From assembly GCA_024679535.1 (NCBI GenBank), contig JAIBDF010000020.1:1-35772 (forward strand): a stretch of DNA of 35,772 bases, given 5' to 3'. Under the pieces are notes generated by a model. The model saw nothing but the letters and a program-made list of their open reading frames with translations, searched no databases and was not told the DNA's origin. This DNA is from Chromatiales bacterium. GTDB lineage: Bacteria; Pseudomonadota; Gammaproteobacteria; Steroidobacterales; Woeseiaceae. Both the position numbers and the translations under genes were made by a program. Each line of letters starts with the position of its first letter. Within the stretch, counting starts at the first letter, position 1. This document shows, piece by piece, positions 17,571 through 25,122 of the stretch.

Positions 17571-18119
17571 ATGAAAACCGACTCACGAGCACTCATGACG
17601 GAGCTGCGGGAAGACCACCGCAATATGACCGTTGTACTGGACCTTCTCGACGGGCTCATCGTGGAGATAGAGGCCGACAAGGACCCCGATTTCGAGATGT
17701 TCGATGAAATCATGCGTTACATGACGGTCTATCCGGATGCCGTGCATCACCCTAAAGAAGATATCGTCTACGAGCAGCTGCGCGAGGCGCGACCCGATCT
17801 CACCGAAGATCTGGACCATGTACCCGACGACCACAACGACATCGCGCACCTCGGATCGCTGTTGCGGGACGAGGTAGAAGCCGTGGTTGCCGGCGGCGCC
17901 GTGCGTCGCGAAAAAATGATTGAGGACGCGACCGCCTATGTGCGGCGTCTGCGCAATCACATTCAATGGGAAGAAGAAGATCTCTTCAAGCGCATTGACA
18001 AGATGCTTGACGCAGCGGCCCTACAGGTTGACGTGTCGGAATATGAGCACATCAAGGATCCGGTCTTCGAGCTCGAGATTGAAGCGGGCTTTCGCCGGCT
18101 CCTCGCCAGTCTCCGCTAG
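17571..18119 (+). CDS. Hemerythrin HHE-domain protein
   Basis: This 182-residue cytoplasmic protein has the four-helix-bundle signature of bacterial hemerythrin-like proteins: LREDHRNM near 10-17, a helix with HHPKEDIVYEQL near 57-68, DHVPDDHNDIAHL near 82-94, and HIQWEEEDLFKRI near 128-140. The His and Glu residues fit a non-haem di-iron site for O2, NO or redox sensing or iron handling. The ATG at 17571 opens the conserved part; the longer open frame has no homology. No good ribosome binding site is seen. It is convergent with the outer-membrane barrel gene, with 7 bases between stops. Confidence 0.86.
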   Translation: MKTDSRALMTELREDHRNMTVVLDLLDGLIVEIEADKDPDFEMFDEIMRYMTVYPDAVHHPKEDIVYEQLREARPDLTEDLDHVPDDHNDIAHLGSLLRDEVEAVVAGGAVRREKMIEDATAYVRRLRNHIQWEEEDLFKRIDKMLDAAALQVDVSEYEHIKDPVFELEIEAGFRRLLASLR

Positions 18120-18126
18120 CCAGCCC

Positions 18127-19350
18127 CTAGAAATACCACGCTATCTGCGCGAACACACCGGCGTCGACTGACAAGTAACGGTTCGGGAATGCCGTTGCAA
18201 TGCCACCAAACTCACTACCGTTAGCACCGAGCGGCACGTTGAGGCTGCCCAGCAGCGTCATATTGTCGGACAGGCTGTAGCTCGTCACGAACTGGAACAA
18301 CGCACTCGGATCGCCAAGGTTTACAAGCAAAGTCGGCGTCACCGTCCACAGCGGCGTCATCTCGACCAGGACGTTTGCTGCAAGGTAATGGCGCCCGACC
18401 GTGAACAGCTCGCCTCGCGCGAGACGCAGCGCCAGGTCCGGGTTGCCGGCTATGGCAGCCGGGTCGTAACGGCTGCTCTCTTGCCCGAACCCGTTGTAGT
18501 AGTACTCCAGGGCGCCGCTCATGTTTTTGCCACCCCAGATCCACGAGTACATCAGGTTGCTGACGAACTGCATGCGGGTGTCGGCGCTCGCATCAGTTAC
18601 GACCAGGTCGGCACTCCATACGGCTCCGCCGAGAGGGTGTCCTACACCGATCCCGACCGTGGTGTCGCCATAGCTTTGCGCCACGAGAAGGTCGAATTCG
18701 GCCAGGCCGGCAAAACCATGATACTTGACCGCCGCGGTCGCCTGATCGCCTTCCGCGTCGCCCGTCACCGGATTACGGCGCGCCACATACGCCGCCTGTA
18801 GGTCGTTGCCGTTGTCCTGCAGGTATTGCAGGTACAGCATGTCGTCACCGGCCTTGTACTCCGTGTCGATCGCCGCCGGATTGAACGGGTTAACCAGGTC
18901 CATGGGCGCATACACAAGTCCGTTGCCCCAGGACAGCGCCTGGCGCCCGAAGCGCACGACGGTCTTCTCGCTGGCGTAACCGACCCAGAGACGATCCAGC
19001 CGATGCAGCAAGGCACTATCCCCCCCCTCCGTCAGCACATCGGTAAGATTGAACAGCCGACGGTCGTCATTCGGCAAGCCGCCACCTGATCTGATCGTAT
19101 CGCCCTGCAGGCCGACCAGCTGGTAAGCAGAGTCGAAGGTCCAGTGACCGGACTTGAATGCCAGATTCAGTCGCAGGTCAGCCGTAACGTCCAGCGCATT
19201 CGCCCCGACCAGGTCTTTAAACAGACTGTCATCCGGAAAGCTTTGGCCGACCAATCGCAGTTTGGTATGCCCACCAAACTCGGTTTTGACTTCATCGGCC
19301 GCCGCGACCGAGGCCAGCAGCAGGAATATGAGTAGGGCGCTACGCCGCAT
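18127..19350 (-). CDS. Outer-membrane beta-barrel protein linked to an ABC export operon
   Basis: This 407-residue protein has a signal peptide (MRRSALLIFLLLASVAAA) and alternating amphipathic strands throughout, ending in an aromatic-rich last strand with terminal Phe (AGVFAQIAWYF), as needed for BAM insertion. Conserved-looking pieces are VVRFGRQALSWGNG and PMDLVNPFNPAA, as in uncharacterised porin-like proteins. I do not assign a named family with certainty. It is the last gene of the LolA-like/permease/permease/ATPase operon. The start could be the ATG at 19365 or at 19350; both overlap the ATPase stop, and I prefer 19350 for the signal peptide. Its likely job is the outer-membrane end of that pathway. 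Confidence 0.8.
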   Translation of the reverse strand: MRRSALLIFLLLASVAAADEVKTEFGGHTKLRLVGQSFPDDSLFKDLVGANALDVTADLRLNLAFKSGHWTFDSAYQLVGLQGDTIRSGGGLPNDDRRLFNLTDVLTEGGDSALLHRLDRLWVGYASEKTVVRFGRQALSWGNGLVYAPMDLVNPFNPAAIDTEYKAGDDMLYLQYLQDNGNDLQAAYVARRNPVTGDAEGDQATAAVKYHGFAGLAEFDLLVAQSYGDTTVGIGVGHPLGGAVWSADLVVTDASADTRMQFVSNLMYSWIWGGKNMSGALEYYYNGFGQESSRYDPAAIAGNPDLALRLARGELFTVGRHYLAANVLVEMTPLWTVTPTLLVNLGDPSALFQFVTSYSLSDNMTLLGSLNVPLGANGSEFGGIATAFPNRYLSVDAGVFAQIAWYF

Positions 19351-20032
19351 GCTGCTCGATGTCATCGACTATGCGGCCGTCCAGCATGCGTACCAGGCGT
19401 TTCGCGTAGGCCTGGACGCGCCGATCGTGCGTCGCGATGACAAACGTCGTGTTGTGATGCTCGTTGAGTTCGGTGAATAGCTCCATGAGTTCCGCCGACG
19501 TCTTCGAATCGAGATTCGCAGTGGGCTCGTCCGCCAGCACAAGCTCCGGGCGCGACACGATCGCGCGCGCCACGGCGACGCGCTGCTGCTGTCCCCCCGA
19601 CATCTCAGCCGGCCGCCTCGTTTCAAGTCCCTTGAGGCCCACCTCTTGCAGGATGGCGAACGATTTATCGTGACGTTCTGCAGCAGGTACGCCCTGTATC
19701 TGCATCACGAACTCGACATTCTCCTGCGCCGTCAGGACAGGAATCAGGTTGTAGGCCTGGAAGACGAAGCCGATATTCGCGAGACGCAGGTCAGCCAGCT
19801 GGCCTTTGCTCATCTGGTCAATGCGCTCCCCGGCAATCCAGACCTCGCCGCTGTCGGGAATATCAAGCCCGCCGATGGCATTCAGCAACGTCGTCTTGCC
19901 GCCGCCTGACGGTGACATCAGACACACGAATTCGCCTTTCTCGATATCGACGCTCAGGTGGTCCAGCGCCTTGATGTCCTGATCCCCCTGGCGGTAGGTC
20001 TTGCATAAGTCGATACAACGTACTGCAGTCAT
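19340..20032 (-). CDS. ABC transporter ATPase (LolD/MacB-like)
   Basis: This 230-residue cytoplasmic ATPase has all usual motifs: Walker A at 40-47 (SPSGGGKT), Q-loop FVFQAYNLIPVLT, signature MSGGQQQRVAVARA, Walker B LVLADEPTANLDS and the H-loop FVIATHD. The first Walker A glycine (GPSGSGKS/T in most relatives) is a serine here, encoded by TCA. It is the partner of the two permeases immediately upstream (2-base gap) in the same transcript. MacB/LolD-type ATPases do not import substrates; they drive mechanotransmission or lipoprotein release on the periplasmic side. It overlaps the start of the barrel gene. Confidence 0.93.
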   Translation of the reverse strand: MTAVRCIDLCKTYRQGDQDIKALDHLSVDIEKGEFVCLMSPSGGGKTTLLNAIGGLDIPDSGEVWIAGERIDQMSKGQLADLRLANIGFVFQAYNLIPVLTAQENVEFVMQIQGVPAAERHDKSFAILQEVGLKGLETRRPAEMSGGQQQRVAVARAIVSRPELVLADEPTANLDSKTSAELMELFTELNEHHNTTFVIATHDRRVQAYAKRLVRMLDGRIVDDIEQHAA

Positions 20033-20034
20033 CT

Positions 20035-21264
20035 TTACACCTTTGTAATCGCTTCCACGGGCTCATAGCGCGACGCTCGCCAGGCGGGCGACAGACTCGC
20101 GAAGAAACCAAGAACCAAGACAACAACATTCGCGAGAATGACGTCGTCGACGTCGAGATTGGGGTACAGCACGCTCGAAGCGCCGAACATCTCCATGCCT
20201 TTCGCCACTATGGAAATATCGATACCACCTTCCAGCGGTTTGATCGTGGCCCAGGCAAGCACATCACCGATGAGCAGCCCGACCGAGAGCAGCATCATCG
20301 ACTCGATGATGATTTGCCCGAGAATCATCGCGGGCTTCATGCCGAGCGCCAGCATTAAACCGATTTCCCGAATACGTTCGAACACCGCCATCACCAGCGT
20401 GTTCACAAGACCGAACGAAAGCGCCAGGAAGATAACGATCACCCAGATCAACATGAAGCCGTCCATCATGCCCATCATCGTGCCCAGGTATGTGTCGACC
20501 TCAGTCCAGCGACTCACCTGTACCGCATCGTCAACCCGCTCGACGACCTTGCTGTACAACGGCTCAACGTCCCGGTAATCGTCACCGACAAACGCAACCT
20601 CGGTAACGCTGTCCCCGATCCGCAGCATTTTCTGTGCGGTGCGCTTGCCGACAAACGCAAGGGATTCTTCCGTGGCCTCCATTTCCGCGTGAAACAGTCC
20701 GACCACGCGAAAACCACGATCCGCGATCTCGTTTTCCGGGTCCTGGCTCATGACAACGACGCGCTTGCCTACCCGGGTTTCCAGCGTGTCCGCGAGCTTC
20801 GCGCCAAGCACGATCCCGTTGTCGTCGGGCCCCTCCAGAAAACGGCCGTCAACGGCGTCGTAGTCGATGAACGAAAAGCTGCGCTCCGCCTCTGGATCGA
20901 TACCGAGCAAGGTCACGCCGCGCGACTCGCGTTCACTCGTCACAACCGCCGGCACCCGCACCCTGGCGGCCCAGGCCACCCTGTCCAGGTCCTCGAAGCG
21001 GGCCGCAAGTTCCGCGTCACTGTAGGCGACGCGATTGTTGATACTCGGGTCGTCCAGGTAGTCCGGATCGTGAATCTGTACGTGACCCGGAATGACGCTG
21101 ATCCCATCGACGATCATCTGATCGACCATGCCGCGCGTCAGCGCCGTCATGAAAATCATGGCCCAGGCGCCCACCGCGATGGCGCTCAGCATGACGATGG
21201 TGCGCCGATGGTTACGCCACAGGTAGCGCCAGGCGAGTCGACTGAGTACGACGAACATGCGCAT
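20035..21264 (-). CDS. ABC transporter permease (FtsX/LolC/MacB-like), subunit A
   Basis: This 409-residue inner-membrane protein has the MacB topology: one N-terminal helix (about 24-45, TIVMLSAIAVGAWAMIFM), a periplasmic domain of about 220 residues, and three C-terminal helices containing VIFLALSFGLVNTLVMAVFERIREIG, a FtsX-family signature. The end ASLSPAWRASRYEPVEAI is also typical. The ATG at 21264 shares one base with the previous gene's stop (TGATG). It forms with the next permease a likely heterodimer, as LolC and LolE do. The periplasmic domain contains no recognised enzyme motif. Substrate unknown. Confidence 0.9.
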   Translation of the reverse strand: MRMFVVLSRLAWRYLWRNHRRTIVMLSAIAVGAWAMIFMTALTRGMVDQMIVDGISVIPGHVQIHDPDYLDDPSINNRVAYSDAELAARFEDLDRVAWAARVRVPAVVTSERESRGVTLLGIDPEAERSFSFIDYDAVDGRFLEGPDDNGIVLGAKLADTLETRVGKRVVVMSQDPENEIADRGFRVVGLFHAEMEATEESLAFVGKRTAQKMLRIGDSVTEVAFVGDDYRDVEPLYSKVVERVDDAVQVSRWTEVDTYLGTMMGMMDGFMLIWVIVIFLALSFGLVNTLVMAVFERIREIGLMLALGMKPAMILGQIIIESMMLLSVGLLIGDVLAWATIKPLEGGIDISIVAKGMEMFGASSVLYPNLDVDDVILANVVVLVLGFFASLSPAWRASRYEPVEAITKV

Positions 21265-22493
21265 CAGTTCGTCCTCATCGCTTCAACCGGATGCAGGCGG
21301 CGCAGCCGCAGTGCCGGATATATCGCGGCCGCCAGGGTACACAGGAATACAACCAACGGTCCCGCAAACATTGTGACCAGTGTGGCCCGGGGGTAGACGC
21401 GGCCCGGCAGATTAAACTTGGCCACCATCTCCTCCATGCCCGGATAGGAAAAGCCGTTGACGGTGAACCAGGTCGTAAACAGCGCCCCGGCGATCGCGCC
21501 CAGCAGCAGGCCGATGAATCCCATCATGGTCGTTTCGAGCATGACGAGCCGGCCGAGCCGCCCGGGCTTCAGGCCCAGCGCCATGACGATACCGAATTCG
21601 TGGGTTCTCTCGAGAACGGACATTAGCTGCGTGTTGAGAACACTGAACGCAACCAGGATCACGAGAATTCCATACATGAAGAAGGCGCTGCTCATATCAG
21701 CCTGGATGGCCTGCTTGACGCCTGGCTGCAATTCATCCCAACCCTGCACGACCAGCGCGTCATTTGCCGATAGCATCGTTGCAACGCGCGTCTGCAATGC
21801 CTCTGCCTGATCGAGGTCGGGTGCCAGCAGCACGACCTGGTGGCCAGCACCGTTCATGTAAAACACGTCCTGGAACGTACCGAGTGGCATCTCCGCAATA
21901 TTGCGGTCGATCTCCCTGACGCCGCTATCGAAGATGCCCGCGACGACCACAACGGCCGCGGCAAATGAACCATCAAGGCCACTGCCCAAAATCGTCAGTT
22001 CGTCGCCAACATTGATCCGCAGGTTGCGTGCGAGCATGGTGCCGATAACGATTTCCATCGCATCATTCTGCTCGAGATAACGCCCTTCCTTGATCAGCCC
22101 GGGAATATTCGATACCCGGGACTCGAAGGTTGGCTCCACACCGTAGATACCAATGCCGTAGCTCCGCTCCTCGCTCGATGCGAGCCCAAACGCCCAGCCA
22201 CGAGCGGCAATCGTCTCGCTGTCTAATTCACTGCGCAGACGTGCGGCCAACGGTTGCACGTCGGGCACCACCTGGCGCATCTTCTGGTCATCTTTGTAAC
22301 CCGGCGCCTGGATCTGCATGTGGCCACTGAATACCTGCAGCGTGTTATCGATCATGAGGCCGTACATGCCGAACTGCAGCGAAATCATGAACACGAGAAG
22401 CGTGTTTGAAAACACCATGGCCCCGATCGTGAGCCACGTCCGGCGGGAGTGCCGCCAAAGGTTCCGCCATGCGAGGCGCAGGACGACGTTCAT
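21264..22493 (-). CDS. ABC transporter permease (FtsX/LolC/MacB-like), subunit B
   Basis: This 409-residue protein has the same length and plan as its neighbour, but diverges throughout: an N-terminal helix (TWLTIGAMVFSNTLLVFMISL), a large periplasmic domain with QVFSGHMQIQAPGYKDD, and C-terminal helices with ILVILVAFSVLNTQLMSVLERTHEFG. The end LRLRRLHPVEAMRTN matches the FtsX-family tail. Its start is 3 bases after the LolA-like gene stop. Equal length and matching motifs suggest an old duplication that gave a heterodimer. In relatives such as LolCE, the periplasmic loop of one subunit recruits LolA, so one of these loops may bind the LolA-like partner. Confidence 0.9.
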   Translation of the reverse strand: MNVVLRLAWRNLWRHSRRTWLTIGAMVFSNTLLVFMISLQFGMYGLMIDNTLQVFSGHMQIQAPGYKDDQKMRQVVPDVQPLAARLRSELDSETIAARGWAFGLASSEERSYGIGIYGVEPTFESRVSNIPGLIKEGRYLEQNDAMEIVIGTMLARNLRINVGDELTILGSGLDGSFAAAVVVVAGIFDSGVREIDRNIAEMPLGTFQDVFYMNGAGHQVVLLAPDLDQAEALQTRVATMLSANDALVVQGWDELQPGVKQAIQADMSSAFFMYGILVILVAFSVLNTQLMSVLERTHEFGIVMALGLKPGRLGRLVMLETTMMGFIGLLLGAIAGALFTTWFTVNGFSYPGMEEMVAKFNLPGRVYPRATLVTMFAGPLVVFLCTLAAAIYPALRLRRLHPVEAMRTN

Positions 22494-22496
22494 CTT

Positions 22497-23249
22497 CTAG
22501 TCTCGTGGATTACGCAAGTTCGACAAAGTAAAAACGCTGTCTTTCAGGTCCAGTTCGTACTCGACTTCATTGACCGCAATTTCGGTCCACTCGTCCGGTT
22601 TATCCGTCTTCACCATGCGCTGACGCTTTGCAATAGTACGTCCACCCATGTCGGCAATCTCAAGAGATTTGAGCGTCTTCACGAGTTCGCCGTCCTGATC
22701 AAAAAAGGCGTGTGCGAGCACTACGTGATCGTCACGGATGGTCAACACCTCACTACCCCAGACAACAGCGGCATCCTCGTAGGGGATCGATTCGATCTCA
22801 TAAACGGTCAGTCCATCTTCGACGCTCGTCGACAGTATTGAATGCGTGTACTGATCGATGATGTCATCGGCGCGCGCGACGTCCTTGTTGGAAAAGTCCG
22901 AACCCATCCAGCTTTGCGCCATCATCGATGACGGCACTTTGATCACACGATTGATCTTGGGCGAGAACGTCCACATGCTGTTCTCATCGGTGAGCGTGCC
23001 ATTGCCGCGATCTTTTTTCGGTTCAATCACACGGACGAGCGACTGCTCGTCACCTTTGGTCCACGCCTGCATCGTCATCGCCCGCTCCCAGTCGGGGCGA
23101 TGAATAACCATGGTCATAACCGTATACGAGGACAGGCCCCGCCAGTGATTGACCGCATCGCGGACGATTTGCGTCGCGTCGCGATCCTCGCCGGCAGACA
23201 CAGCCGGCAACACGAGAAGTAGCAGCGGGAACAGGAAGCGGTAATTCAT
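22497..23249 (-). CDS. LolA-like outer-membrane lipoprotein-sorting family protein
   Basis: This 250-residue exported protein has a signal peptide (MNYRFLFPLLLLVLPAVSA) and a periplasmic domain beginning with DATQIVRDAVNHWRGLSSYTV, followed by TMQAWTKGDEQSLVRVIEPKKDRGNG and TFSPKINRVIKVPSSMMAQSWMG. These are marks of the LolA-like family with the incomplete beta-barrel that shields lipids. A His/Cys retention motif is not seen, so it is probably a soluble carrier. ATG at 23249 was chosen for the signal peptide; an in-frame ATG lies at 23264. It is the first gene of the ABC operon and is therefore likely to shuttle a hydrophobic cargo between the permeases and the outer-membrane barrel. Confidence 0.87.
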   Translation of the reverse strand: MNYRFLFPLLLLVLPAVSAGEDRDATQIVRDAVNHWRGLSSYTVMTMVIHRPDWERAMTMQAWTKGDEQSLVRVIEPKKDRGNGTLTDENSMWTFSPKINRVIKVPSSMMAQSWMGSDFSNKDVARADDIIDQYTHSILSTSVEDGLTVYEIESIPYEDAAVVWGSEVLTIRDDHVVLAHAFFDQDGELVKTLKSLEIADMGGRTIAKRQRMVKTDKPDEWTEIAVNEVEYELDLKDSVFTLSNLRNPRD

Positions 23250-23358
23250 AGGCGTATAGACCATTAATCTAGTCCAATGCCCAGTATTTCACATCCGTAG
23301 ATACCGAGTACCCAAACTGTCTGCTAAGCTTGCGCCACGACTTTTGGGAACCCCACTT

Positions 23359-25122
23359 ATGCGCAATTTCTTAGAGGAACTAAAGCGCCGTAATGTCGCG
23401 AAGGTCGCTCTGGTCTACGTCATCGCCGGCTGGCTCACGATGCAGGTTGTCGACGTCATGTTTCCCGCACTCAAGTTGCCCGAGTGGCTGATCTCGGCCG
23501 TCGCCGCTTTCGTCATAATCGGGTTTCCGTTTGCAGTGATCTTCGCCTGGGCGTTCGAAATGACGCCTGACGGCCTCAAGCGCGAGAAAGATGTCGATCG
23601 CAGCGAATCCATAACCCCGCAAACCGGCCAGAAACTGAATCATACGGCGGTGGTTATTCTCGCGATTGCCGTAGCCTTCCTGCTGGTCGACAAATTTGTA
23701 CTGCAGGTGGACAGCGAAGCGATCGACAGTCCCGCAGAAATCGCCGCTACTGAGGAAAAGCCCTCTATCGCCGTATTGCCCTTCGTAAACATGAGTGGCG
23801 ATGTGGAGAACGAGTACTTTTCGGACGGACTCTCGGAAGAACTTCTGAATCTGCTCGCCAAGATCTCGCAACTACATGTTGCCGGACGCACCTCATCGTT
23901 TAAATTCAAAGGGACGAATGAAGACCTCCGCATAATTGGCGAGGCTCTGAACGTCGCACATGTACTCGAAGGCAGCGTCAGAAAGTCCGGCACACGACTG
24001 CGCATTACGGCGCAGCTAATCGACACACAAAATGGCTATCACCTCTGGTCTGAAAATTACGATCGTGAACTGACAGATGTTTTCGCTATCCAGGACGAGA
24101 TTGCGGGTCATGTCGTCGAGGAGCTGAAGGTTCACCTTCTCGGGGCCGAGGTCGCGGTGGCAACCCAGGGCACAACCAATGTCGAGGCCTACAACCAGTT
24201 CCTGCGCGGTAATTATTTCATCGACAACACCAGTGCGGAGAACCTCGAAAAGGCCCGCATTGCTTACGAGACCGCCATCGAATTCGACCCAAACTTTGCG
24301 CGCGCGTACGCCGGTCTGGCCCTCGCCCTGCAGCAGGCCTACAGCGGCTGGGCATCGAGCAGTGGTGGTTCTTTCATTGAGAATTTCCAGCATGTCAGGG
24401 AAGTCGCGGACAAAGCGACACAGCTTGCCCCCGATCATCCCGATTCGCTCATCGCACAAACTGCCGTTGCATTACTCTTGAACTGGGATCTGCCTACTGC
24501 ACGCGCGCAAACTGAAAAGGCTCTCGAGGCGTCACCAAACGACCTCACGATTCTCGGCTGGCACGCCTCCAACCTGATATTTTCCGGGGAATTCAACGCG
24601 GCGGAGGCGCTCCTGACAAATGCCTTAGAGGTCGACCCGCTGTCGCTCGCCACACTGCGCCAGCTCGGCGATTTGTATTCGTTTAGCGATCGCTGCGACC
24701 TCGCCATAGAAACCTACCAACGCGCACTAAACCTTGCGCCCGACACCGGTCGTATCTATGGGCGAATTGCGCGCTGCAAACTTTTTCAGGGTGACGTGGA
24801 AGCCGCCAAGGCACTCAATGTCAAGGAGCCTGTAACCTGGGTACGCGAGACCAACGAGCTGATCATCCTGGGCCGCGAAGGACCGCTTGAGAAATGGCAG
24901 GCAGCGGTTGCGAATTATGAAGACGAATATGGCTTCGGCAATTCCTACCAGATGGCTGAGATTTACGCTGACAAGGGCGATATGGACAAGACGTTTGAGT
25001 GGCTGGATCATGCGGCCCGGGTCAGGGACCCGGGCGGGGTCTGGGCGCTGGCCATGCCCTTCTTTGACGAGGCCAAAAAGGACCCCCGCTGGAAAGATTA
25101 CGAGGCAAAATTCAACCTCTAG
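23359..25122 (+). CDS. Membrane-anchored TolB/TPR protein (adenylate-cyclase-like architecture without cyclase)
   Basis: This 587-residue protein has an N-terminal membrane module beginning MRNFLEELKRRNVAKVALVY, with GWLTMQVVDVMFPAL and GFPFAVIFAWAFEMTPDGLK, found in many proteobacterial adenylate-cyclase-like and regulator proteins. A second helix lies near 93-113. It is followed by a TolB/FlgO-like domain (SIAVLPFVNMSGD, EYFSDGLSEELLNLLA, VLEGSVRKSGTRLRITAQLID) and TPR repeats to the end. No cyclase or DNA-binding domain is present. ATG at 23359 begins the conserved part. It is divergent from the ABC operon (109 bases). Role: probably protein-protein scaffolding or signalling; no specific function is known. 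Confidence 0.85.
   Translation: MRNFLEELKRRNVAKVALVYVIAGWLTMQVVDVMFPALKLPEWLISAVAAFVIIGFPFAVIFAWAFEMTPDGLKREKDVDRSESITPQTGQKLNHTAVVILAIAVAFLLVDKFVLQVDSEAIDSPAEIAATEEKPSIAVLPFVNMSGDVENEYFSDGLSEELLNLLAKISQLHVAGRTSSFKFKGTNEDLRIIGEALNVAHVLEGSVRKSGTRLRITAQLIDTQNGYHLWSENYDRELTDVFAIQDEIAGHVVEELKVHLLGAEVAVATQGTTNVEAYNQFLRGNYFIDNTSAENLEKARIAYETAIEFDPNFARAYAGLALALQQAYSGWASSSGGSFIENFQHVREVADKATQLAPDHPDSLIAQTAVALLLNWDLPTARAQTEKALEASPNDLTILGWHASNLIFSGEFNAAEALLTNALEVDPLSLATLRQLGDLYSFSDRCDLAIETYQRALNLAPDTGRIYGRIARCKLFQGDVEAAKALNVKEPVTWVRETNELIILGREGPLEKWQAAVANYEDEYGFGNSYQMAEIYADKGDMDKTFEWLDHAARVRDPGGVWALAMPFFDEAKKDPRWKDYEAKFNL

Follow-up and report, generated by a model that had tools for sequence, protein, structure and literature searches.

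A five-gene operon of a Woeseiaceae bacterium as a putative ABC-powered counterpart of RND-driven DUF1302/LolA-fold transport systems

The window analysed here is a stretch of 35,772 nucleotides from a Chromatiales bacterium of the family Woeseiaceae (assembly GCA_024679535.1, contig JAIBDF010000020.1). It carries an operon of five genes, encoding a LolA-fold periplasmic carrier, two FtsX-type permeases, an ATPase of the ATP-binding cassette (ABC) type and an outer-membrane beta-barrel. We favour, with some reserve, the reading that the five proteins make up an ABC-powered route of the shuttle type, by which a hydrophobic molecule would cross the periplasm. In this reading the operon corresponds, with an ABC engine, to the DUF1302/LolA-fold systems of the AmeABCD type, which are driven by resistance-nodulation-division (RND) pumps. 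The analysis establishes the gene content and conservation of the operon, the predicted folds of its products, the presence of a separate Lol system in the same genome, the missing Hook hairpin of the permeases, and a carrier family that also occurs in barrel-bearing RND cassettes. A sequence-only reading of the window had already described the five genes; the partial relation of the barrel to DUF1302, the RND counterparts in the same genome and the missing Hook go beyond it.

Organisation of the operon

Five open reading frames lie on the minus strand of the window and are ordered, in the direction of transcription, carrier, permease 1, permease 2, ATPase and barrel. The carrier (22497..23264, 255 aa) has an N-terminal signal peptide, read by eye; its Met6 is nearly invariant in a 42-row alignment, so that its likely start is at position 23249, which agrees with the coordinate given in the sequence-only reading. 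Permease 1 (21264..22493) and permease 2 (20035..21264), both LolC/E-like FtsX/MacB_PCD proteins without a Hook hairpin, have the same length of 409 aa. They precede a LolD/DevA/FtsE-like ABC ATPase (19340..20032, 230 aa) and a 412-aa protein with the C-terminal residues WYF (18127..19365), which is a predicted 18-strand outer-membrane barrel, probably related to DUF1302. Carrier and permease 1 are separated by 3 bases, and the two permease genes overlap by 1 base; a gap of 2 bases follows permease 2, and the ATPase and barrel genes overlap by 26 bases, or by fewer if translation of the barrel begins at Met6.

These results bear out the sequence-only reading as regards the five-gene set, the equal length of the permeases, the terminal Phe of the barrel and the junctions, which it had given as gaps of 1 to 3 bases or overlaps. 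The families that it had proposed agree with Pfam for the carrier, the permeases and the ATPase; no Pfam family was assigned to the barrel. A simple scan for sigma-70-type promoters found none in positions 17900-23500, and a single transcript is therefore suggested by the spacing and conservation of the five genes.

Folds and families of the carrier and the barrel

The carrier is a member of the Pfam family PF17131 (LolA_like), which it matches with 155.9 bits for a gathering cut-off of 30. Its AlphaFold2 model, with a mean predicted local distance difference test (pLDDT) value of 82.7, has the LolA fold. The best Foldseek matches (3buu, 9tp6 and 4z48) are all LolA-superfamily or DUF1329 structures, the match to 3buu having an E-value of 3.4e-17 and template modelling scores of 0.64/0.72. 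By sequence, the nearest PDB entries are 4z48, 3buu, 9tp6 and 3bk5. In addition, PF17131 and DUF1329 proteins match one another's profiles.

The AlphaFold2 model of the barrel has a mean pLDDT of 90.5 and 18 strands by our own count. Among solved folds it comes closest to the BenF/OprD/Occ porins (Z up to 23.7) and, on a par with them, to the exporter AlgE (Z 23.1); the structure search returned general porins only and no closer family, an absence that does not count as evidence. The invariant residues of the barrel cluster at positions 140-176, between predicted strands 5 and 6, and in the model this block may be the site of the porin-type lumen loop L3 (the third outer loop). The DUF1302 matches of the barrel orthologues fall around this same stretch. 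In a first set of orthologues, 6 out of 9 matched PF06980 (DUF1302) at E<=10, with a best value of 5.9e-6; in a set of 51, PF06980 was matched by 31 at E<=0.1, with a best value of 4.8e-5. The orthologue of genome G046 reaches 25.5 bits over profile positions 162-194. The barrel is thus probably a distant relative of DUF1302, not a proven member of this family.

Conservation and variants of the gene order

Within the order, a barrel relative was detected in 10 of 97 genomes, the window's own genome included, and the five-gene order was recovered in 7 of them besides the latter. The five genes are spread over two contigs in genome G035, and only distant, contig-split pieces were seen in G043. 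A scan of named genomes yielded 358 stretches encoding a barrel relative, from which the best 80 of the 358 were used to count gene orders. The full set of five genes was found in order at 61 of these 80 loci, the other 19 running off the end of a contig upstream; at one of these truncated loci, L117, the reading frame of permease 2 is in two pieces. The barrels of the named relatives are 91 to 71 per cent identical to that of the window. Most of the 80 loci belong to bins named Woeseiaceae or Gammaproteobacteria/Proteobacteria; bins named Lysobacterales, two Acidobacteria and one Thermoanaerobaculales are also represented, as is the Halieaceae strain Candidatus Litorirhabdus singularis IMCC14734 (L138), which is a strain record and not a metagenome-assembled genome.

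At the level of the class, the barrel profile was matched at E<=1e-5 by 32 of 369 genomes (28 of the 314 better ones), and 32 regions were fetched from the 29 class genomes that were new to the analysis. ABC genes adjoin the barrel in 30 of these 32 regions. In region L213 the ATPase lies about 5 kb from the barrel on the same strand, and region L216 is a contig-end fragment; in its genome, L224 contains ABC genes and a second fragment of a barrel. The carrier was seen in 27 of the 32 regions, the remaining 5 being cut by the ends of contigs or of the fetched regions. From the complete order at 61 of the 80 named loci, the cut ends at the other 19 and the adjacency in 30 of the 32 further regions, we rejected a chance neighbourhood: the barrel is kept with the other four genes, and the sequence-only reading is not refuted on this point.

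Two variant architectures were also found. In five regions (L218-L222) the carrier is followed by the ATPase, then by a fused double permease of at least about 840 aa, and last by a distant barrel. Genome G015 encodes, besides the five-gene form, a four-gene second copy (L064:6106-9989) made of a carrier, a single permease, an ATPase and a barrel, the latter being 26 per cent identical over 258 residues. Two local irregularities were noted: no clear gene call lies within the 5 kb or so that separate ATPase and barrel at L213:7556-12759, and at L214:7834-8836 the ATPase reads as two pieces, through a frameshift or a sequencing error.

Beyond the five genes, the commonest neighbour cluster is found in 44 of 112 loci, and extra neighbours are common to subsets only. 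Named from their homologues in the window, these clusters are M48 peptidase-like (44 loci), hemerythrin-like (42), AI-2E transporter-like (28) and CDP-alcohol transferase-like (24). We considered the neighbours as a clue to the cargo and rejected them as such, the clusters looking like local synteny of close relatives.

RND-driven counterparts

The AmeABCD system of Castellaniella defragrans combines a barrel of the DUF1302 family with a DUF1329 protein of the LolA superfamily, a protein of the COG4447/YCF48 type and an RND pump (HAE3), and its deletion lowers the tolerance to monoterpenes (PMC6394551). In Pseudomonas putida, DUF1302 and DUF1329 proteins were proposed to form a new transport system together with an efflux transporter (PMC10866462).

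The genome of the window encodes a whole cassette of the AmeABCD type at L167, with DUF1302, DUF1329, YCF48 and RND genes. A further cassette of the same genome, L070, comprises a TetR gene (named by eye), an RND pump, a PF17131 carrier and a 395-aa barrel-like protein. In two relatives the RND (MMPL) pump is fused to PF17131 (L168:4223-7414 and L169:3629-6811): the proteins measure about 1060 aa, their C-terminal 180-190 residues correspond to the carrier, and a barrel-like gene then follows each of them. Among plasmid records, a single one, from Haliovirga abyssi (Fusobacteriota), matches the window's barrel (E 7e-7, 23.7 per cent). On it, a cluster is formed by TetR, an MMPL pump, a PF17131 carrier, a ferredoxin gene and, after these, the barrel relative. 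A second LolA-like/MMPL set, with an annotated DUF1302 protein, lies nearby on this plasmid (L300:3545-16942). At another locus, L284, two LolA-like genes of 280 and 287 aa stand side by side.

To survey the carrier family, we located PF17131 at 85 places in 37 of 75 class genomes and sampled 60 of them, leaving out 8 ABC and 1 RND loci that were already known and 16 others by their list position. An RND pump was detected within 6 kb on the same strand at 35 of the 60 sampled loci and an ABC permease at 4. No recognised carrier was present at 4 of the 60 loci, three of which had permease and ATPase hits; a second, stricter count set this number at 10 of 60. In this stricter count, whenever the carrier was directly preceded by an RND pump (17 of 17 cases), the gene that follows encodes at least 300 aa and ends in F, Y or W, compared with 20 of 187 unlabelled genes. 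Carriers are thus commonly accompanied by a barrel-like gene and the engine varies, RND being the commoner engine in the sample.

Relation to the Lol system

The genome of the window (G000), which is 95 per cent complete, encodes Lol proteins away from the operon. LolA was found at C26:114001 (139.7 bits), two LolC/E permeases at C26:62467-64950 (433 and 474 bits for a cut-off of 362) with an adjoining LolD-like ATPase, and LolB at C209:38619 (132.6 bits). LolB and LolC/E matches over the cut-off were found in all ten genomes tested. The possibility that the operon is just the Lol system of this genome was rejected on these grounds. Together with the conservation of the five genes, the separate Lol genes support the distinction from housekeeping LolCDE that the sequence-only reading had drawn.

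Both permeases match the Pfam families FtsX and MacB_PCD, all four matches being above the cut-off. Their nearest NCBIfam family is lolCE (TIGR02212), with scores of 108.0 and 136.5 bits that lie well under the cut-off of 362.45, and their nearest PDB sequences are LolF and LolE. Similarly, the ATPase matches ABC_tran with 111 bits, and its nearest NCBIfam family, LolD (TIGR02211), with 222.4 bits for a cut-off of 307.75. We built a permease tree of 55 rows, rooted at the midpoint and leaving out MacB and the other FtsX families. A branch with 100/100 support splits 20 LolC/E rows from 35 rows of the present system (permease 1, permease 2, distant pairs, fused halves and one single permease), some branches on the system side being long. 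In this tree the permeases of the operon form a lineage apart from LolC and LolE.

In Escherichia coli, LolC requires its Hook (residues 167-179) for the recruitment of LolA, and a contact between Hook and LolA is predicted in every LolC or LolF examined in that study (PMC10865981). The Hook hairpin has the motif TP.G..PR in the genomes analysed here and aligns with SPAGVVPR of the solved LolF. Its placing rests on this structure and on the genome's own canonical protein, where it starts at about residue 176 (residue 172 of the fragment), rather than on E. coli LolC. At each of the 13 loci examined, which come from 10 genomes and of which a few were fetched twice, one and only one of the two canonical permeases has the motif; it occurs in none of the 154 rows of system permeases. 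The Hook segment measures 24 residues in permeases with the hairpin, 22-24 in their canonical partners, and 19 or 20 in the system rows. As judged from these alignments, the permeases of the system are without the LolC Hook hairpin, and the carrier would therefore have to be met in another way.

These comparisons bear on the best surviving of the alternatives, which we nevertheless hold to be unlikely: that the operon is a second, specialised lipoprotein-sorting system, in which the ABC machine would extract particular lipoproteins, the carrier would transfer them, and the barrel would insert them or flip them to the surface in place of LolB. The proximity in sequence of the permeases to LolF and LolE and of the ATPase to LolD, as well as the LolA fold of the carrier, are in keeping with such a role. 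However, the hairpin that one of two canonical permeases has at 13/13 loci is present in 0/154 system rows, the permeases and the ATPase score far under the Lol cut-offs, Lol genes are encoded elsewhere in the genome, and 35 of the 60 sampled related carriers adjoin RND pumps. Because the Hook is missing and the relatives are RND-linked, a lipoprotein cargo is less likely. A small apolar lipid or a secondary metabolite appears the more likely one.

Proposed mechanism and its significance

In the ABC-powered shuttle route, permease 1 and permease 2 would form a heterodimer and assemble with two copies of the ATPase into a type VII ABC machine of the MacB/LolCDE type. This machine would lift the cargo from the outer leaflet of the inner membrane. 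The LolA-fold carrier would then ferry it over the periplasm in its greasy half-barrel, and the barrel would receive it and either insert it into the outer membrane or release it outside. The sequence-only reading had proposed a dedicated route for one hydrophobic cargo. That the route is dedicated and distinct from LolCDE is sustained by the separate Lol genes and the conserved barrel; the hydrophobic nature of the cargo, the outward direction and the delivery to the barrel stay inferred.

More tentatively, and with somewhat less than even confidence, we suggest a class of envelope exporters of the shuttle type, as opposed to the tunnel type, built around a pair formed by a LolA-fold carrier and a DUF1302-like barrel and powered by interchangeable engines, either RND or Hook-less LolCDE-like ABC. 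The window would represent the ABC form of this class. With both forms in its genome, the handover may have evolved apart from the Lol Hook, each cassette having its own apolar cargo. The delivery to the outer membrane of hydrophobic lipids beyond lipopolysaccharide, phospholipids and lipoproteins is poorly understood, and a small cassette of five genes that joins an ABC engine to a carrier and a barrel of its own, in a genome that also has Lol genes, would be a clean genetic handle on it, with a single deletion to make and a single carrier to purify together with its ligand. Should different engines be exchangeable around the same carrier/barrel pair, many LolA-like proteins annotated as lipoprotein-sorting may be dedicated lipid shuttles outside the Lol pathway.

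Several observations weigh against the shuttle route as an ABC counterpart of the RND-driven systems. The barrel of the window does not match PF06980 (gathering cut-off 23.2 bits), an unrelated family at E 0.16 being its only match, and one of the 51 orthologues matches Porin_4. Profile-profile comparisons of the window's barrel family with other barrels, for which the opposite side had 2 to 4 rows, gave low probabilities: 12 per cent (E 0.0024) with two DUF1302 proteins, and 0.7 and 16 per cent (E 0.079 and 0.0016) in the comparisons with four barrels of RND cassettes and with two further barrels; with such weak scores, the link between the barrel and DUF1302 rests on partial matches around one motif. 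There is no YCF48-type gene, the counterpart of AmeC in AmeABCD as described (PMC6394551), among the five genes of the operon. In the survey of the carrier family, 17 of the 60 sampled loci show neither engine by narrow profiles, and when all carriers with a gene of at least 300 aa within 300 bases downstream are taken together, 25 of 36 such genes end in F, Y or W. No cargo gene linked to the operon was found among the neighbours of the 112 loci. Finally, the tie between porins and AlgE leaves the direction unfixed by the barrel fold, and the DUF1302 and DUF1329 genes of P. putida are essential for growth on Tween 20, which could mean import (PMC10866462).

An uptake or retrograde route, in which the barrel would import a hydrophobic compound, the carrier would ferry it inwards as far as the inner membrane and the ABC machine would assist its unloading, is the next alternative, and in our view an improbable one. 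To our knowledge, type VII ABC machines of known function all work outwards, which counts against it. Such machines are also associated with export in PMC13078400, and AmeABCD is an exporter by its deletion phenotype (PMC6394551). Import is nonetheless consistent with the resemblance of the barrel to OprD/Occ/BenF porins, which would fit an uptake porin, with the role of DUF1302/DUF1329 genes in the use of Tween 20 by P. putida (PMC10866462), and with operons containing DUF1302, PF07044 and a COG1033 exporter that are co-regulated with the degradation of aromatic compounds (PMC6449761).

A MacAB-TolC-like efflux pump, in which a continuous channel would be built with the carrier in place of the membrane fusion protein and the barrel in place of TolC, agrees with the FtsX/MacB_PCD domains of the permeases. 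It is very improbable, given that neither a membrane fusion protein nor TolC is encoded among the five genes, that ATPase and permease are on separate genes instead of being fused, and that the carrier is a LolA-fold protein. Hardly credible at all is a barrel that would be an unrelated porin merely co-transcribed with the carrier/ABC system: its general porin fold would allow it, but its association with the ABC genes persists at barrel identities as low as about 26 per cent and through three gene architectures, and barrel-like genes also follow RND-linked carriers.

Comparison with known systems

The operon resembles the canonical LolCDE-LolA-LolB system in combining an ABC machine with two FtsX-type permeases and a LolA-fold carrier, and differs from it by the missing Hook hairpin, the lack of LolB in the cluster, the presence of a barrel and the separate lineage of its permeases. 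With AmeABCD it shares the grouping in one operon of an outer-membrane barrel, which is probably related to DUF1302 here, a periplasmic protein of the LolA superfamily and an energised transporter of the inner membrane (PMC6394551). The engines differ, since the window encodes an ABC ATPase and two FtsX-type permeases whereas AmeABCD is described with an RND pump (HAE3), and so do the other components: the carrier is a PF17131 protein of 255 aa versus a DUF1329 protein of 451 aa, and the barrel has 412 versus 605 aa. In P. putida, a DUF1302 barrel, a DUF1329 protein and a transporter (PP_0765/PP_0766 and PP_2018/PP_2019) were likewise proposed to act as one system. There the transporter is named as a multidrug efflux transporter, and, to judge from the locus numbers, the genes lie at two separate sites of the chromosome or genome (PMC10866462).

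A LolA-like carrier has also been suggested to serve one pathway in Flavobacterium johnsoniae, where LolA2 and LolB2 belong to the flexirubin locus; the suggested cargo is the pigment or its precursors, or lipoproteins of the locus (PMC11885536). Unlike the carrier of the window, LolA2 is paired with a LolB-like lipoprotein, and the terms 'ABC transporter' and 'RND' are absent from the text of that paper (PMC11885536). LolA3 of Porphyromonas gingivalis is reported to bind LolB weakly (PMC13103446), and iron-regulated operons with MMPL, LolA-like and ABC genes have been described in P. gingivalis and Prevotella intermedia (PMC10434189).

Among the matches listed in the open-licence literature that we searched, no published cluster of ABC, LolA-like and DUF1302-barrel genes was recognised. 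The nearest published ABC cluster found is BBJ23-29 of Borrelia, which similarly brings together a MacB-like ABC transporter, a LolA-like carrier and a barrel. In the passages describing this spirochaete system, the barrel belongs to the Omp85 family, one permease is proposed to act as a homodimer, and the cluster also encodes a pair of TPR proteins and one more, unknown protein, unlike in the operon of the window, where two distinct permeases accompany a barrel that is probably related to DUF1302 (PMC13078400).

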